In this document: positions 3,176-44,790 of the stretch, piece after piece
How the letters are laid out: each line of letters opens with the position of its first letter
Position numbering within the stretch: position 1 is the first letter of the stretch
Source of the DNA: Taxawa tesnikishii (nom. ined.)
Taxonomy: Eukaryota > Ascomycota > Dothideomycetes > Dothideales
Direction: 5' to 3'
Assembly: GCA_030247885.1 (NCBI GenBank)
Contig: JAPDRO010000006.1
Span: forward strand, 372,001-436,000
DNA: 64,000 nucleotides
Made by a program: the position numbers and the translations under genes
The notes under the pieces: model-generated
Told to the model about the DNA's origin: nothing
Databases searched by the model: none
What the model saw: the letters and a program-made list of their open reading frames with translations, nothing else

Positions 3176-3284
3176 CGGTGAACGCCAAGTATGAGTTTTT
3201 CGCATTCTGTCAACCTATATCGCAAACTCAATTCGAATCCTGCATGCTTCGCACCCTGCAGCTCCTCTCCTTCTCCTTCTCCCC

Positions 3285-4434: not shown

Positions 4435-5770
4435 TCAGTCCAAGCCGGAGAAGGAAAACGAAGTCTGAGCACCGCTCTTGTCCTTGCCCTTGTTCCGCTT
4501 TCTGCGCTTCCGCCTCTTGCGGCCCTTGTCCTCATCATCACTGCTGTCGTCTCCCTCCTCGTCGCTGTCTTGGTCACTGTCACTGCCCACGGCTCTCTTT
4601 TCAGCGCCGTCAACGTAGCCGCCGTTATCCTCGTCCACCTTCTCGTGCCAGACCTTGATGACGCTGCCACCGCCGCTGATGAGCCGGCCTCCGACGTCGA
4701 AACCGAGGCTTACCACGCCCTCGACCTCGTCGTGCCGGATCTCGTCGACGACTTTGTTCATGCCCAGGCGTACGAACCTGACCCTTCCGTCTCCGAGACC
4801 CACGGCCAGAGTGCTTCCGGAGGGACCGATCCCCTCCGGCAGCAGAGCCAGCGTGTCCAAACTCTCCCCCGCCGGCTGCACGGTCCACGGTGATGCGCTC
4901 GTCTTGATCGTCCCAAACGCCCCTTTCCCACAGCGTCAGGACGCCGTTTCCTCCGCCAACGATTACTTTCTCGCCTTTGGAGCTGCTGTTTTTGCGCGCC
5001 GAGAGTCCGGAGATGAAGAGGGAAGAGAGGAGGATTTCTTCCTGGTCTTCGCTGCGCACCAGGACACCGCGCCGCAGATCCGTCACGGAGAGCGTGGTGC
5101 CTCCCGTGCTGACCCATTGCTTGCTGTAACCCGAAGTGCTGGTATCCGAAGGCGGCAAAGGCGTGAGAGACGAGATGTAGTCCGCGTGCGGGTGATGCGT
5201 CTGTTGCGGTTTTGTGGATGCGAACGAGGTGTTCTCCGTCTTGGTGGGAACGCGCAGGTCGTAGAGATGCAGGGCGGAAGAATCGGTCGCCAGTAGGAGA
5301 GTTTGCGGGCTCAGAGGGTGCAGGAGGGACGGCGCATCGATGTCATCGGTAGCTCTGTTTGCGGTGTCAAATGTCCGATCTACGCGCGCGATCTAGGACG
5401 CAACGTACGGGTCCAACGGCACGGCGACCTTGCCGACTACCTTTCCCGTCTCGGTGTCTGCCAGCTTGACGATGCCATCCGTGCCTGCGCTGAGGAGAGC
5501 TCGGCCGTCCAAGGTGTAGGCCAAGCTCCTGCAGCTGCCTTTGTGCCGGCGCGTCCTCCACTCCGTGTCTATGACTCCGCGTCCATCCGCTGAAGCAGTA
5601 GCGGCGGCATCACCGTCTTCACTGCTCACGTCCGAACCAGGGACAGGCGGCAGGCGCAGAGTCGCAACATGGCCGGAAGAAAGACCAACGGCGAGGAGCG
5701 GTTGTTCGGGGTGGAGAGCCTGGGCGAACAGATCCGAGGACAGCGGGAGAGTGCTGACCGTGTCGAACAT
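4435..5770 (-). CDS. JIP5: WD40 repeat protein JIP5 (WDR55 family)
   Basis: JIP5/WDR55 proteins are nucleolar WD40 propellers needed for large-subunit ribosome biogenesis and rRNA processing. The start ([20 protein letters not shown]) is the family's characteristic N-terminus, followed by blade motifs such as [36 protein letters not shown] and [15 protein letters not shown], and a C-terminal acidic then Arg/Lys-rich tail typical of nucleolar proteins. The exons are 5770-5409 and 5354-4435; the intron is 54 nt, contains a stop and splits a Pro codon. The frame breaks at the C5 run at 4866-4870 (one base too many on this strand's G run); with four, [17 protein letters not shown] joins smoothly. 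The product is then 426 aa, normal for the family. It is divergent from the GH36 gene. Confidence 0.9.
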
Positions 5771-34768: not shown

Positions 34769-37230
34769 CTAAAAGGCAGCCCACTCCAACCACCCCTCCA
34801 CCAAACCCCAGATCGACCTGTCTCCCTTTCTCCTCGCCTCCCTCGCCGCGGCCTCGACTTCATCGTAGCTCATCCTGCCCGGCCCGCCGCGCTCCATTAT
34901 CTGTCGCTCCTCGACGTCCAGTCTCGCCAAGAGCTCGAGTCGTGTTGCAGACGGCGGCGGCGGTGGCGGCGGTGGTGGTGATTGCGTTGAAGCCGGAGGA
35001 GGAGTTGGGGGTGAGGAGGGACTAAGACGCATGGCGGAAGGTGAGCGTGAAGGGCTGCGCTGGAGGGTCAGGGAGACGCCGATGGGGGAGGAGACGGTAC
35101 TCCAGGAGCGTGTGGGAGAGGGCGAGCCGCTATGGCCGTTCGGCTCCGGTGAGGCGGCGATTTGGAGAGGACCGTAACCTGCATCCGGCCGGTTCTGTGG
35201 CATTGTGGGATCTGGTGCCGGTATTCCTTCTGACGCTGCAAGTGACGTTTCTTCCGCTTCAGGGGTGGCATTGTTCTGCGTGTCTACCACCTCATCGAAC
35301 GATAGTAGGGCTGTTGCTGCTCCGAACTCCCCGCCATGTGTGCGGAGTGCTTCGACTCTCGGGTGTAGTATCTCTAGCGGCTGAACTTCGTTCTCGTCTT
35401 GTTCTTCTGCTATGCTGTAGCCTGATGCCTCAAGTAGCTGATCCAGCGGCTGGTTGCGAATCTCGGCTTCGAGGATTTCCAAGCTCGCTTCATCAGTGGG
35501 TAAAGCCTCTTCAGCACTCTGGATTCGCGTGCGTATCTCTGTGGCAATATCAGCTTGGTTGACGTCCGGCGCTGGGGTAGGCGGGTCCGGATCCGCCGGT
35601 GTCATAAATATAGACTCCTCCGTCTCCTGAGGGTCAAGGGCGTTGTAAGACGACATAGCCGTCGCCAGGAGTGGATCAATCTCAGACCCGTTCATCAACT
35701 CCTCTTTGAAGACCTTCTGCTCTTCTACAAATCGGTCGATCTCCTTGCGCCTTTTGCGCCGCTCTTCGCGGGTTTCGGCAACCTGACGAGCCAATTCCTC
35801 TTTGGGCTTGAAGAGCGGATCCAACATCTCGTTGAAGCCTGCTTGGATCGTTTGCCAAAGCACTTCGTTCCCGTAATCTTGCTCCGCCTCCGGAATCTCG
35901 TATCCAGGGTTGAAGGCCGTCAGATCGTCAGGGAGTACAACGTTTTGCTCCACACTGTTGCCGGAAAGCTGCATCTCTCCAAACTCGTCTGGGCTTTTGC
36001 CACTAGGTGTTCTCGTCTCCCCCATGGGTACGTCTTCTTGACCAAAGGCAGCACTGATTGGCTGGCTCGAGGTTACTATGTCGGTTGTATTTCTGTGCAT
36101 CTCGGCCTGCTCTGCAGCGATCATGTCCTGGACGATGATTCTGTGGATACCGTATTTCGCACTGAGCATTCGGATGAAATCTTTACGGCTCACAAATCCG
36201 TCACCGTCAACATCAAATCCACGGATTTCTCTTGCTAGCGACTTCGGTTTGGAGGATTGATTCAAGTACGCCAGTCCATCGACGAACTCACTCAGCCCGA
36301 TGAGTTCATCTCCGTTGGTGTCGTAGAAATTGAACATGCGTTCGTATAGGAAATTCGCCTCAACAGGATGTGGCCAGTTGTCTGAGCTCATCGCTTTGTT
36401 AAAGGCGCGACGATCGACAGCGGCGTTGAGCCCGCACGGATCTTGCGGCCAATGTACGTTCGCAATACAAGAGAACTGATCGTAGTAGGCTTCGATTTGC
36501 ACGTCCTCTAACCCGGTCTCCTGCGCCAAACGTTCCCTCACGCCGGCGTCCAGAGATGGCCAATACCGCATGTTGTCGCCGGGATACCAGAGATCAAGCA
36601 TCTTGTGCGGTTGTGCGAGCGTTGGAATGGGTATCTTGACCTTGCAGAAGACATGGGTCTTGGGGTGTGGTCGGGATTGAGAGGCTTCGCAGGTAGAGCA
36701 GAGGTCGTAGTCCGGACAGTTCATGCAGTGCCACCGGATACCCTTGATGGGCAGCTCGCCGCAAGAATCGCACCTAGTACCTTTGTGCACGTAAGCTTGA
36801 CGCTTGGCTTGCTCCTCGGCAATGTGGTATATCAAGCCTTTGATGCTGTAAAGCCATTGTCAGCCGGATTGTACGCACAGAGAATGTCGCCCGTTGAGCT
36901 TTCATGAAAGGAGAAGCGAGCGGAATATTGCAGTTGACGAGACATGCTTGCTGTCACTAACCCTTGGTCTGGCTCATCAGCTTCGTCTTCATTGGGTCCA
37001 TCAGCCACTGTTTCTGCTACTTCCTCCGGGAATTCCGCAAAGTCTCCATGTCCTGTCGGTGGCGAGACTCTTCGACGTTGGCGACGGACCGCATTGCTCC
37101 TATGCAGTGCGGATTTGGGCTGCCTGCTCGTGAGAATGAGATAAGTGCCATATGCTGCTGCAACCCCGGCGATTGTAAGTATTGCCGGCCGGTAACGCGA
37201 GAGTGAGCTTGAGGTCGCAGTGCTCGCCAT
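34769..37230 (-). CDS. ZZ zinc-finger and EF-hand protein with N-terminal membrane anchor
   Basis: About 781 aa in two exons (37230-36962 and 36845-34769; 116-nt intron). An N-terminal hydrophobic segment (AILTIAGVAAAYGTYLIL) follows a short basic start, so the protein is probably anchored in a membrane, perhaps mitochondrial outer membrane or peroxisome. Then a ZZ finger (CDSCGELPIKGIRWHCMNC ... CSTCEASQSRPHPKTHVF), and two EF-hand loops, DTNGDELIGLSEF and DVDGDGFVSRKDF, with the Ca-binding spacing. A coiled-coil, Arg/Glu-rich stretch (EELARQVAETREERRKRRKE) and a long Pro/Ser-rich tail complete it. Such ZZ/EF-hand proteins are widespread in Pezizomycotina but not characterised as far as I know. 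Confidence 0.85.
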
Positions 37231-38060: not shown

Positions 38061-40116
38061 ATGGAGTCAGAAAATGATGAGCGTCCATCTCTGTTTCAGC
38101 GTCTCGGGTTCACGCAACGCCACCATTCACGACCTAAAGCTGGAGCTACTGTGCAAGGCCCGCAGGACCAGTATCTTGCACTGCCCAATCCGGATGAAAG
38201 AGCTGATCTTAGGTCATCTCAACTCAACGACTCGGATGATGAAACTTCGCCGACCCTCACCGCCCAACAGCGGCGACCAGTACGTCAAGCGCCACAAAGC
38301 CCTCTCAGCGATGTTATAGCAGTACGGCCTATTGTTCGCATGGCGCAAAACAAGAAGTCAGCTACAGCCCATACGAAGGGGTGGCGAAACGAACGATCAA
38401 GACGAAGAAGATCATCTTCAAGTGGGAGAAGCGCCACATTCGAGCACTTTACGTTATCAAAAAACATCTCCAGGCGGACTGGGATAAGTCCACAGAGATC
38501 TTCAATGAACTATTCCGTAACGATATCGTCTCTTACGGTTTTCGCGACGGTTACGGCAGGCAGGGTCTGAGTGCGCAGTATGCCGAGCGCCTGAAGGAGT
38601 CCCCCGCAAGGCATGGCAAGAAGTACTCCATCCAGACGCTAAAGAGGAAGCAGCCATTGAACAACTGAGGAGCGAAGCCGAGACCATTGCTAGAGAGCTG
38701 AATCGTACTAGCGTTCACACATCCACTCGAGTAGCTGCAACAGCCACCACGACAGCTGCAACAGTCAAGACGACAGCTACAGCTCGCGTACTAGCACCCA
38801 GACCTTCCCCGTCGACTGTCCGCGTTCTACCACTATCTCCGTCGATTGCTGCATCGAGTCCTTCCTTGGAAGACGACAATGAGATAGAACTCGAGCCGGC
38901 TCTGTCATTGGTCGTCCCGGACACTGCACCGATGGAAGTGAGAGAAGTTCAGCTGAGGCGGCTCCCGACTAGTCAAGGGTTACTAGTCGACGGTCAGCTT
39001 GTTACACAGGCCCCATTGAACGACCCTTCGGGCCCGGTGGTATTGTTTGAACGTGTCAATGAGGCAGAAGCACACCCGGCCTTGCCAGCACTCTTTTACA
39101 GGTACTACCATGACGGTAGCCAAGGTACAAATAGTTCTGATGGGTTCATATCCGGGTTGTTCACCGGAAGTCGTGCCGGGTTCCCACCACCTCCAGCAAC
39201 ACCCGACCAGATGTTGTATCACTACGTCAAGGCCCACATAAACCGAAATCACATACACTCTCCATTTATCAGTGTGTGCATTACCCTCAACTGGGTCATC
39301 CGCCAAGCGCTACAAGCTCAAAGCAGGGACGAAACCAATCCGAGAATATGCGTTATCGACGCTAGCATCGCTGGTCGCAACAGGAAGGCCTTCTATCCAG
39401 GGCCGTACCACCGGGAGATCAAGAAGTACCGGCCGTACGAGAACGGTGCCCAGCTCTACTCTGGAACCTATGAGTTCCTGATATGGGGCAACATTCCCAA
39501 GGAAGCCATCATCTGCGATTTCCCTTTGAGCCATCTCAGAGAACACGTGGATGGAATACCGGAGTTAAGTAGCATGCTTGGCTTCGACATTTTGAGCCAA
39601 CATAGGCGCAGTTTTCGCAACGTGATCCTTCCGCAGCTGCAGGCTAGGAACGTCCAGGTCAAGCCTTCTATTATCCCCGCCATGGCTAGCCTGGCAACCT
39701 TTCTAGGCATTGATGCCACTTCTCCCGCCGCCTACATCTCGAAAGTCGTCGCTGATATCATCGAAGGGTGGGGCATTAGGCCTAGCATAGATTCTTGGGC
39801 TGCATGGTACGACAAAGCTAAATTATTCGCCATCTATCTTAGCACCATTTCAATGAGCGGTCCATTCGATCAGAAGGAGACCGCAGAAGCCTTCCTCGCG
39901 GGTGCACGGGCAGGCCTAGGCCAGTACGATTGGTTTAGGTTCCCTAGCAAAGAGAGGACGGTGAACACTCGAGCGTCTAGGGTCGGTCTGGGAGCAGTAG
40001 TAGGTGGGATCAAGCCGAGGGAATTTTATCAGGTGTTGGTCGATCATGGCGCCGATTTGAAGGCTTCTCGTCAGCGCGATATGGTAAGATCCTTTCGCTA
40101 CCGTGGTGAATCTTGA
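38061..40116 (+). CDS. DUF7587 protein with SANT-like N-terminal region
   Basis: As written the frame breaks twice, at the A4 run 38347-38350 and the C5 run 38601-38605, each one base short; compensated, the gene reads as a 685-aa protein. After a disordered head comes KRTIKTKKIIFKWEKRHIRA then LYVIKKHLQADWDKSTEIFN, a Trp-led helical segment resembling the SANT/Myb-like region found in many ascomycete proteins of this type. A disordered Thr/Ala linker follows. The C-terminal domain (ALFYRYYHDGSQGTNSSDGF, FISVCITLNWVIRQAL, FLIWGNIPKEAII) matches what I know as DUF7587, a fungal domain of unknown function. No signal peptide or membrane span. It converges on the GTPase-patatin gene, their ends being only about 0.4 kb apart or overlapping. 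Function unknown. Confidence 0.75.
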
Positions 40117-40527: not shown

Positions 40528-43500
40528 CTACAGGCCTCGGCAACAAATCCCCGCAAACTTCCTCAGCTCCTCACCGGAGTAGAGCTGAGGATGACTGGCC
40601 ATGTGCTGCGGTCCAATATACGTCCAGAAGCGATTTGTGCGGGCGCGCTGGCCCGGGTCCGGGTTATGTTCCGAGAGGCTCTCGATCATGGACTGCTGGG
40701 GCGGACTAGCAGGGCCGTTAGAAGGGGGCGAGAGAGGGAGGTAGGCCGTTTGACAGAGACGGTGCCGCTGCGGTCTCGCGGGTGCGGGTTAAGTGAGATG
40801 CCGGATTCGGAGGACTGGCGCGGGCGTAGTTGGATCGGGCTGTGGAGGGTTCTCTCGGCTGAAAGAGGGTGGGCTGATGTCTGGCTAGAACTGCGGCCGT
40901 GGCGGGAGGCTAAGAGACGTGAATATTCAATCGCGAGAACATGGAGAATGCAACATGGCAGGAGAGTTGTAACTTACGTGTGGTGGTTGGCTCAGCGAGA
41001 AGGACACGCGGAAATCCGCTAATGGCAAAGCCGTTCGGCTCGAGGCCGTCGTGGAGGTCGAGGAAGAGATTCACGGATGTGGGCTTGGTTTCGTCGTCAA
41101 TGAAGATTTTGATATCGCTGCCTAAAGTGAAGCCGAGGCCTTTGATCATGGCTTCTATGACGCCGTTAGAGATGGGGATCTAGAAGTGTCAGTTTCGGAT
41201 TTCTGAGTATGGAGATATTCTGCGGTCCAACCTTCGTGCCGTCCTGGTCTTGGTAGTTCGTCCGTACTAGGAAATGTGGTTGGAAAATATCGGACTTCTT
41301 GAGAGAAAGGAAAGATCCCAAGCCACGAAGGTATTCGGACCCGGCCTCGAAACGGCAAGCAATGGTACCTAGCGTTCTCTAAGCTTAGTGTTTCGACATA
41401 TTGCTACACAAAGGGACCTACCAGTACATGCCTGAGACCGGGCATCCAGTCTATCCCGTGTGTGGATATCGAAATAGAACGAACTCGCGACTAACCGATG
41501 AGCTACGTGCTGCAGTGCTGCCTGCCTGTGAGGTAACCATAAGCGCTTTCTCACGGCTTGCTGCAAAGACCGCAGCTCATGCTTGTTATCCAGGTTCGGC
41601 GGCTCATCGTCCAGGTCTGGATTGAAACGGATGTAGCGCCGACTGCCCTGCTCCAACTGATTCGATGATAGCGATGCTTTGAAGAAGTTCCATTCCATCT
41701 CCGCATCAAGTATGTCATCGACGGAATGACCGTATAGTGTTTGCCAGATCCTGTTCCAACCTCTCGGCTTCTCCTTCTTGATGTCCACCTGGGAAAGACT
41801 GTTCAGAATGGTCATGCGGTTTTGTCCCGAGCCTAGTGAGAGAAAGATGTCTGGGTCCCGTTCGGCAACGTCTGGCCAGAGAAGCTTCCTTTCGCGCTCT
41901 GCTATTGCCGCAGGATTGACGGATTTCACAGCGCCGTCGAGATATGTTCGGTGAGTTCGAGAGTTCACGAACGGCTTGAAGTATGTAGGGGCCGCAGTCG
42001 TGGCCGCGGTTGCTTCCCAAGTTTTCATCTCTACTGCCGGGTTGTGAGGCCTTTCGAACTGGTAAAAGGGTACAGCGTCTTCCGCTCTGCGATAATTAGC
42101 CAGTAGAATGCTGTCCTTTCCGGTTGCTGAAGTGGCCGTCATCGCGACTTTAAGCTGCTGCTTGGTATGAGACACACTTCCGAAAAGATATTCCTCTCCG
42201 AAAGCCGTGTGCAGTGCTCTGTGCAACGGCTTGGTCTTGTATCTGCTAGCTCCGCTCAGAGCTGCTGCATACTTGAGCAGAGGTAACCCTCTAACCTTTG
42301 GTGTGTACGCGTGGTCACATATGGCGGTGAGTTGATCGAGCACCATGTGCGTAGGTCGCAGCTGTACCCCAAGCGCGGTAGCAATAATCCCTCCAGTCCC
42401 CGTGCCTACGATGAGATCGAAGAAGGCTTGGATCGCTATTAGGTTGCCGAGGGCCTGTTCAATCTCCCTGAGGACTTCCAGCTGAACAACACCTCTTATC
42501 CCGCCTCCATCTAAACAGAGGATTCGGACACCGGCACCTTCAGGCTTGAAGCTGATCTGATACGGCTTGCTCCATTGTGTTGTACTGCTATGCAATGGAC
42601 AGGAGTTAAGTGCTACGTCAGACTTGGTGATTGCCTTGCTGAACGCCCTCACGCATGCCGTGCATAGGACATGGCCACAGGGAAGTGGGTGCTCCGGTAC
42701 GTCCATAAGACAGGAGAAACATGTTGCGTGAGAGAGGAGATTCTCTGCATAGCCCACGCTGGCATAGAAACCCGCCATATATTCCTTGTGTAGGTCTAGT
42801 GCAATCTTTCCGTCCGACACCAAGTCATTGCCTAGGTTCGCCTGTTCCAGTTCGTAGTTAAAGTCGCGCTGTATAGACGTGATGGCGCTCCGTAGCTGTT
42901 CTTTCCATAAAGGCGCAAAGCTCTCCGCGCTAAAGCTTGCCTGGTAGTCGCCGGTACTGATAATTCCAGCCTCGTCCTGATGACCTTTGATGTTGTGCCT
43001 TGCTTTGACTAGCATACAACGCCGGCCACTTTCGTGAGTATAAGCGCAAGGGCAGTGCAATTCGCAGAATTCCGCAAGCGCCCAATCGAAGAATTCCTCG
43101 TAGTTGCTGAAAAGATCCTCCATGCGACCTGTTTCAGGTTAGCGAACGTGCTTGGGTGAGGACATGGACGTACCTTTCCGGAAGCGGGCGCAATCCAGCA
43201 AGACGCACGACGCAAGCATAACACTCAATTGCTCAAACACCCACGACGCTCTTCCGCCCTGCTTTGAGTGCTGTGCGGATATGGTGGTGGCCAACTGTAG
43301 GATATGGCCACCGAAATCGTAAGCTATCGGGTTCTGCTTCAGAGATACCTCTACGAAGTTGAATGGCGTGTCAAGATAGCGGGTGAAGTGGTCAAAACCG
43401 GACTGTAAATAAACGTTCAATTCATCGGAATTGGTGAGCATGCGAGCTCTGCGCTTTGTCCGGAATGACTTCTCACTGGCCTCCTTGATCATTGTGTGCA

Positions 43501-44790
43501 GCTTGCCGACCTGTTCGTTGATCACCATGTACCGTGGCTTAGTAGGTATCCTGATAACCTGGAAGGACGCATAGTATCGCAAGATCAAGTCTTCGACTGT
43601 GTAGATATGTTTACCCAACTTTCTCCAATACTCGGCAAGCTCCCTGAACCGGGGCACTCCTTCTACATAGTCAAGAGCGCCCTTGACGGAAGAAAGCAGA
43701 CTTTGTGTGGCGTAGTTCGTGTCCCATTCGCGATCATCCACATTGGGGTCAGTAGCGTTGAGTACCACAATAGCGTGAGGCAGTGCAGGTTGGTTGATCG
43801 ACTTCTCCAAAGCAGACACACCCCAATCGAGCAGTTTAGTCAACACTGCAGACTGGAAAGTCCTGCAAAGATTGTCAGGCTTGAGTCCACTTCCACGGCT
43901 CGGGAACTTGCACAACTTACTTAGGGTTGCGGAGCACAAATACCACCACATCAGAGAAAGTGTACAGCAAGCGGGGTAAAGCTCTCGCACGGCAAACTCC
44001 CTCTGCCTTGTCTCATCTGTGTTCGCCCATTCGATGACGCGCGAGTTTACATTCGCCAGCCGTGAAGTCTCTCGGGTGTACGGATCCGAACCTGCTCTCT
44101 TCCGGGATCGAGCACCAAGTGGTAAGCGTTCACCGCCTTCAAATCCCTCGCAGTCTGCATAGAGGATTGGCAGAACCTCTGCATGTGTTGCGGGGTCTGC
44201 GTAGAGATGCACATCTCCAGACGTGGGCAGGGCATCGTGAATGACAGAGCCCACGATAGGGGAAGGGAACACAGCGGCAATCTCGGGCTTCCTCGTCTGG
44301 CTCTGTTGATGATTTATCAACATTTTGATGATAGTCGACTTTCCCGCATTGGTAACTCCAATGAAGGACACCAATTGAGGGTATCTGTTGCCCTGGTAAT
44401 GCGCCGGCGTTATGCTAGCCATAAGTGAAGCGTATCTGCCGTAGTCTTCGAATTTGGGTCGGCCAGTGAGGTCTTTAGTGACGCCGAACCATTTAGAGAC
44501 CTCGTCCTTCGTGTGTGCATCGCGAACAACTTCTGCGGAATCCGTCGGTTGGAGTATGCTTTGCAGGCGCGCAGCGACTTGGGGTCTGTCTTCTCATGGG
44601 GTACTCCATCGCGCCCCAGTTTGCCGGGCTTATGGGGTCCCTGAAGAGGCCAGCATTCCGAGCAGTAATCACTGGAGCAATCCACACAATGCCAGATTGG
44701 CAATTGCGGCCCTCGGCATCTGTCGTCCTCGCACTGCGGTTCTGGCTTCGATTGCTTTGTAGGATCCAGGGTCGAGTTTGCTTCGGCCAT
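40528..44790 (-). CDS. B-box-like / GTPase / RING / patatin multidomain protein
   Basis: Six exons: 44790-43921, 43862-43174, 43128-41422, 41368-41232, 41179-40978 and 40909-40528. Introns are 45-68 nt and all canonical. Domains in order: a zinc finger of B-box type (CEDDRCRGP, WHCVDCSSDYCSECW, later His residues); a GTPase-like domain with Walker A GVTNAGKSTIIKML, DCEG as switch motif and NATD as base motif; a RING finger (CFSCLMDVPEHPLPCGHVLC ... CVRAF ... CPLH); and a patatin phospholipase fold with LDGGGIRGVVQLEVL, the nucleophile elbow VGTGTGGIIA and YLDGAVKSVNPA. The usual Ser of GxSxG is Gly (codon 42398-42400). Frame slips: CA repeat near 44509-44515, G4 run 43973-43976, G5 run 40724-40728. 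Corrected length is about 1328 aa. Family-like sequence in shifted frames continues to about 40.27 kb, so the true stop may lie there. Probably a regulated signalling or defence protein; that is inference. Confidence 0.75.

Follow-up and report, generated by a model that had tools for sequence, protein, structure and literature searches.

A fungal protein with a B-box-like finger, a GTPase-like region, a RING finger and a patatin domain, recurring at a second locus of the same genome

The domain combination described here is real and recurs in one fungus. A minus-strand gene of Taxawa tesnikishii (nom. ined.) encodes a B-box-like finger, a P-loop GTPase-like region, a RING finger and a patatin domain in one large protein, and a second locus of the same genome carries them in the same order, with the P-loop and zinc-ligand patterns intact. 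The gene lies in a stretch of 64,000 nucleotides, hereafter the window (positions 372001-436000 of contig JAPDRO010000006.1, here C31; the genome has 29.37 Mb in 34 contigs). We found no description of these four domains in one protein in the open-licence literature, as represented by the top-ranked search results and by passages of papers on fungal NOD-like receptors (NLRs) and cell death. Ascomycete database proteins labelled 'FabD/lysophospholipase-like' may include such proteins, undescribed. We give an even chance to the reading that this is an uncharacterised family of large fungal proteins in which a RING ligase, joined to a lipid-binding patatin module, is under the control of a GTP switch.

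The gene starts with the ATG at 44790, and verified coding amounts to 1,200 residues in three frame-pieces (44790 to 40977), across which stop codons are absent. The protein runs from the B-box-like finger (at residue 20) through the P-loop GTPase-like region, a stretch that matches no Pfam model, a Cys/His cluster, the RING (at residue 657) and the patatin domain to a C-terminal region. Its features, in window coordinates, are as follows.

40528..44790, minus strand: whole gene, at the span given by a first-pass annotation of the sequence; the coding part is verified between 44790 and 40977, and the 3′ end is uncertain.
44596..44733, minus strand: B-box-like Cys/His finger; eight ligands, with identical spacing in the second copy.
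44333..44359, minus strand: P-loop (Walker A) GVTNAGKST; from motif, profile match and hhalign.
44144..44167, minus strand: G3-like motif ILYADCEG (DxEG); from motif and hhalign.
43748..43759, minus strand: G4 candidate NATD; from motif.
42977..43066, minus strand: third Cys/His cluster; from alignment with the second copy, Cys and His being common to both.
42590..42721, minus strand: RING finger of C3HC3H type; the last ligand is His, likewise in the second copy.
41900..42520, minus strand: patatin domain; from Pfam PF01734, NCBIfam and PDB sequence matches.
42386..42406, minus strand: nucleophile elbow GTGTGGI, with Gly replacing the catalytic Ser.
41936..41938, minus strand: Asp of the catalytic dyad (YLDGA), retained; from motif.

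The second copy was found by searches with the two large open reading frames (ORFs), on contig C19 (locus L025; C1, C2, C3, C12, C19, C31 and C33 are contigs of the one genome, and L001-L056 are loci extracted from it). Spliced, and with X at frame slips, it is identical to the window protein in 558 of 1,204 aligned columns, and the two are colinear, B-box through C-terminal region. Common to both are the eight B-box ligands, G..NAGKST, ILYADxEG, LNATD, the RING ligands, DGGGIRG and YLDGA. The C19 copy matches Pfam models of its own (patatin 4.6e-26, MMR_HSR1 0.0017, a B-box-type model 0.0046, RING models from 0.016). The order B-box-like, GTPase-like, RING, patatin, which the first-pass annotation had claimed for the window gene, is thus borne out, and because the paralogue is colinear we take the parts to form one gene family rather than chance neighbours; a chance fusion of two genes is ruled out on the same ground. 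In all five stretches compared between the copies, third codon positions are the most diverged (identity 0.29-0.56, versus 0.68-0.74 at second positions). Judged by codon position, past purifying selection on these stretches is shown.

Two introns occur in the C19 copy only, one splitting the P-loop (L025 ~3233-3284) and one, of GC-AG type, the nucleophile motif (~5463-5514); the window copy has neither. More distant loci lie on C2 (L026 and L027, near 471k and 940k), where a region 22% identical to the window protein and devoid of GxxxxGK[ST] is followed by a RING-like match and then by the beginning of a patatin domain (27.4 bits against a cut-off of 27.7). L026 and L027, mutually inverted and ~469 kb apart, agree at 99.06% over 5,002 bases or more; they arose by a recent duplication of the segment, or else assembly produced them. 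A patatin piece on C33 had no detected GTPase. No prokaryotic or viral relative was confirmed among 590 matches in genome_contigs and 193 in viral_contigs, a weak search with two short peptide patterns each.

The GTPase-like region has the motifs of the TRAFAC class, namely G1 (GxxxxGK[ST]) and G3 (DxxG), which read GVTNAGKST and ILYADCEG in the window copy and GATNAGKST and ILYADSEG in the C19 copy. With a two-copy profile (window plus C19) as query, hhalign aligned the RHD3/Sey1-type GTPase of this genome at 63% over 67 columns, from the P-loop to DxEG. Against ten MMR_HSR1 proteins pooled in one profile it gave 85%, over 20 columns that lie at the P-loop. Taken singly, three of those ten proteins exceeded 60% and the remainder gave 3 to 25%; pooled dynamins gave 14.5%, and three shuffles of the RHD3 sequence 0.2%. 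In a whole-genome search, the MMR_HSR1 match here reached 22 bits with its neighbours, just at the cut-off of 21.9. The middle region had been called a P-loop GTPase in the first-pass annotation; that call is partly supported, by the G1 and G3 motifs and by the partial alignments (63-85%, against 0.2% for shuffled sequence). From motifs and profiles, the region is likely a P-loop GTPase of the RHD3/GB1-like or the MMR_HSR1-like class.

The B-box-like finger has the ligand pattern C-x4-C-x9-C-x2-C-x4-C-x2-C-x6-H-x11-H. The RING has the cross-brace Cys/His pattern, C-x2-C-x10-C-G-H-x2-C-x2-C...C-x2-H, and its closest solved relatives are TRIM34 (0.0012), TRIM39 (0.016) and TRIM5 (0.039), the matches to these three ranging from E 0.0012 to 0.093. 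Between the GTPase-like region and the RING, the third cluster, missed by the first-pass annotation, reads HCPC...GRRC...H..KGHQ; it has no Pfam match and is a possible zinc site.

Several results weigh against this domain assignment. The Pfam matches of three of the four parts fall below their curated cut-offs: B-box 18.8 bits (E 0.0018, cut-off 24.1), MMR_HSR1 20.2 bits (E 6.7e-4, cut-off 21.9) and RING 17.5 bits (E 0.0043, cut-off 25.2). G4 is atypical in both copies, NATD being without the Lys of [NT]KxD, and GTPase homology is detectable from the P-loop to G3 only. Two PDB sequence searches with the GTPase region returned four matches, all at E 0.73 or worse. The three that fall on the P-loop are to the ATPases PilU and MsbA and to a YqeH-type GTPase; the fourth falls in a helical-looking part. 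AlphaFold2 models had a mean predicted local distance difference test score of 33 for the middle ORF (484 residues, including the second frame slip and an intron; four-row alignment) and of 40 for the RING-patatin ORF (589 residues, 11-row alignment).

The patatin domain itself is well recognised (PF01734, 59.1 bits, E 8.6e-16, cut-off 27.7) and has the DGGGIRG motif; its closest solved relatives are CapV (7.7e-14), iPLA2-beta (5e-12) and plant patatin (4.2e-8). Its Ser-Asp dyad is incomplete in the window copy, where Asp is kept and Ser is changed to Gly, a loss that the first-pass annotation overlooked. The Gly codon is GGG, from which every Ser codon is two or more substitutions away, and since both flanks are in frame it cannot be the product of a frame slip. 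The C19 copy reads GTSTGG at this place, across the GC-AG intron. Among other patatin loci, L001/L020 (one locus), L005 and L008 keep GTSTGG, L002 has GASAG, L003 GTSGG and the C2 copies GTSAG; L007 (C12:491269-491715) has GTATG and is likewise without Ser. L006 and L015 are left out of this comparison. Plant pPLAIII enzymes have GxGxG (PMC4204433), and loss of activity is for that reason likely yet not certain. Going by these motifs, the window patatin is probably not a normal lipase and may be a non-classical or a dead one. The first-pass reading of a lipid-targeting effector is weakened accordingly for the window copy by the missing nucleophile.

The first-pass annotation had also described one splice-consistent gene. 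A minus-strand gene with its ATG at 44790 stands, but two one-base frame slips occur in it where no intron fits; the anatomy holds, a single clean gene model does not. Four short introns fit GT..AG. Two further small exons follow the patatin domain and run to 40977, where there is a fifth splice donor; the first-pass annotation's gene end at 40528 is possible, and its length of about 1,328 residues exceeds the verified part. A profile scan gave no credible Pfam match in the C-terminal parts of the window and C19 copies.

43863..43920, minus strand: intron, at the same place as an intron in the C19 copy.
43129..43173, minus strand: intron, at the same place as an intron in the C19 copy.
41369..41421, minus strand: intron, GT..AG fit.
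41180..41231, minus strand: intron, GT..AG fit.
44580..44592 (~44,586), minus strand: frame slip 1, of one base and without an intron; the C19 copy keeps a single open frame here.
43970..43984 (~43,978), minus strand: frame slip 2, of one base and without an intron; the C19 copy keeps a single open frame here.

Introns at 44,586 and 43,978 were rejected, as the C19 copy reads through at each position; near slip 1, visual inspection of a few donor/acceptor pairs turned up none that would restore the frame. Two one-base slips of its own are present in the C19 copy (~5,613 and ~5,965 of L025), where the window copy is open. As a control, we inspected HSP70, TCP1, class I tRNA synthetase and DEAD helicase matches for neighbouring hits that change frame with too little space between them for an intron. 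The inspection was visual and covered a matched length of ~52 kb (summed by hand, intron read-through included); slips hidden inside a match could be missed in this count. Three slips were found (loci L029, L030 and L056), on C1 near 528,262 (TCP1), on C3 near 494,623 (HSP70) and at C1:573600-574350 (isoleucyl-tRNA-synthetase-like), and none was seen among the DEAD helicase matches. All seven slips (four in the two copies, three in housekeeping-type genes) have the same direction, and five of the seven, including all three controls, coincide with four equal bases in a row, which makes a systematic one-base loss in assembly likelier. Slips of this kind in housekeeping genes favour assembly error over decay, and both window slips are probably assembly errors. 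Counting against this are the two C19 slips, which lie away from base runs, and the slip rate, which is higher in the two copies (4 in ~7.3 kb) than in the controls (3 in ~52 kb).

Ten neighbouring ORFs of the window gene were scanned, with matches to UbiA prenyltransferase (two pieces), ZZ plus EF-hand, DUF7587, threonine dehydratase and a CAF1B/HIR1-like propeller (four pieces); one ORF had no match, and no glycerolipid gene was recognised among the ten. The DUF7587 gene (38521-40113, plus strand) stands tail to tail with the patatin gene and is the strongest of four DUF7587 matches genome-wide, and a long ORF with the ZZ finger and EF hands lies at 34772-36859 (minus strand). The HET domain is familiar from filamentous ascomycetes, and this genome has 95 HET-domain matches. 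Only two are on C31, at 230,560 and 787,276, so that both are more than 180 kb from the window gene (~412,500-416,800). A HET gene on C19 (L025:346-2283, C19:484345-486282; Pfam HET 2.4e-11) ends ~0.4 kb upstream of the ATG of the C19 copy. By hand calculation, ~0.02 HET matches are expected by chance within 3 kb of one locus and ~0.08 over four loci, and this neighbour is suggestive only as a hint of a non-self role.

In the reading to which we give even chances, GTP binding would drive self-association, association would bring the RINGs together and so turn on ubiquitin transfer, and the patatin domain would carry the complex to membranes or lipids. A copy of the C19 type could in addition cleave lipids; for the window copy we would expect chiefly lipid binding or regulation by a pseudo-enzyme, or else a non-classical mechanism based on GxGxG. 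Since other filamentous fungi induce and use patatin genes in regulated cell death and in non-self responses, either may be the setting here. In Podospora incompatibility, patatin genes are enriched among the induced genes (six of nine; PMC3689799); of nine non-NLR patatins, five are up with bacteria and three in incompatibility (PMC4835503); and cell death by PLP-1 requires patatin activity together with the NB-ARC nucleotide motif (PMC12881547). By this analogy, the non-self role that the first-pass annotation suggested is a plausible hypothesis.

A role unrelated to non-self, with the protein as a GTPase- and ubiquitin-controlled patatin that regulates lipid metabolism or trafficking on organelle membranes, appears somewhat doubtful. 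Patatins are widely active in lipid turnover, and the neighbours of the window copy include UbiA, CAF1B/HIR1-like and threonine dehydratase ORFs, but glycerolipid genes are wanting among the ten scanned neighbours and the catalytic Ser is missing. It is unlikely, and a little more so, that the window copy is a decaying pseudogene with real slips and a lost Ser, leaving the C19 copy or none at work. The two slips, the change to a GGG codon two or more substitutions from Ser, a slip rate above that of the housekeeping sample and the slips in the C19 copy itself would all suit decay. They are set against 1,200 residues without a stop, intact splice sites, zinc ligands and other motifs, and the shared direction (7/7) and four-base runs (5/7) expected from systematic base loss in assembly.

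We think it improbable that the gene encodes an NLR-type allorecognition receptor, with the GTPase in place of NB-ARC or NACHT and the patatin as cell-death effector. Patatin is a recognised effector domain of fungal NLRs (PMC4986451, PMC10197012), and the HET gene end beside the C19 copy would fit such a role. The window copy, however, is without its nucleophile and far from either HET match of its contig, and its patatin is C-terminal, not N-terminal, of the switch. Patatin-type NLRs are nearly always of the NB-ARC kind (146, 95%, in Sordariales; PMC12258605, also PMC4986451), but the window and C19 pieces gave no match to NB-ARC or NACHT up to E 5, and neither copy, C-terminal parts included (the window copy scanned to 40977), matched the superstructure repeats TPR, WD40, ankyrin or HEAT. 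On this profile evidence, the window protein is not an NLR. Very unlikely, in our analysis, is a relay within one chain, in which the GTPase would oligomerise, the RING would build ubiquitin on or beside the protein, and the ubiquitin would activate the fused patatin; a Ser-less copy of the window type would then be the regulatory partner of a Ser-bearing copy of the C19 type. Ubiquitin activates several bacterial patatin-type phospholipases.

The first-pass annotation had likened the protein to fungal NLRs and to the cyclic-oligonucleotide-based antiphage signalling system (CBASS) of bacteria; as membership in either the analogy is not supported, given the absence of NB-ARC, NACHT and TPR matches and a score of 94.8 bits against the NCBIfam CBASS lipase model, whose cut-off is 200. 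CBASS CapV and iPLA2-beta are the closest solved relatives of the window patatin, but no cyclase is among the ten neighbouring ORFs scanned and the Ser is absent. In TRIM/RBCC ligases, too, one protein holds a TRIM-like RING together with a B-box-like finger. They have RING, B-box and coiled coil at the N-terminus in that order, an arrangement not found here, where the RING lies ~590 residues past the B-box, behind the GTPase-like region, and a patatin domain follows toward the C-terminal side. To our knowledge, neither a GTPase nor a RING is part of the pPLAIII patatins of plants. These share GxGxG for GxSxG with the window copy (PMC4204433) but are a plant subfamily, whereas here the C19 and C2 copies keep the Ser. 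NLRs of the PLP-1/Pa_1_11380 type (patatin, NB-ARC, TPR) are alike in having a patatin and a nucleotide-binding switch in one large protein; the window protein differs in its GTPase-like switch, the lack of TPR, the reversed order, the added RING and B-box and the missing catalytic Ser. If the favoured reading is true, the family would give fungi, next to the NB-ARC NLRs, a second kind of switch-controlled patatin protein, in which GTP, ubiquitin and membranes are coupled.

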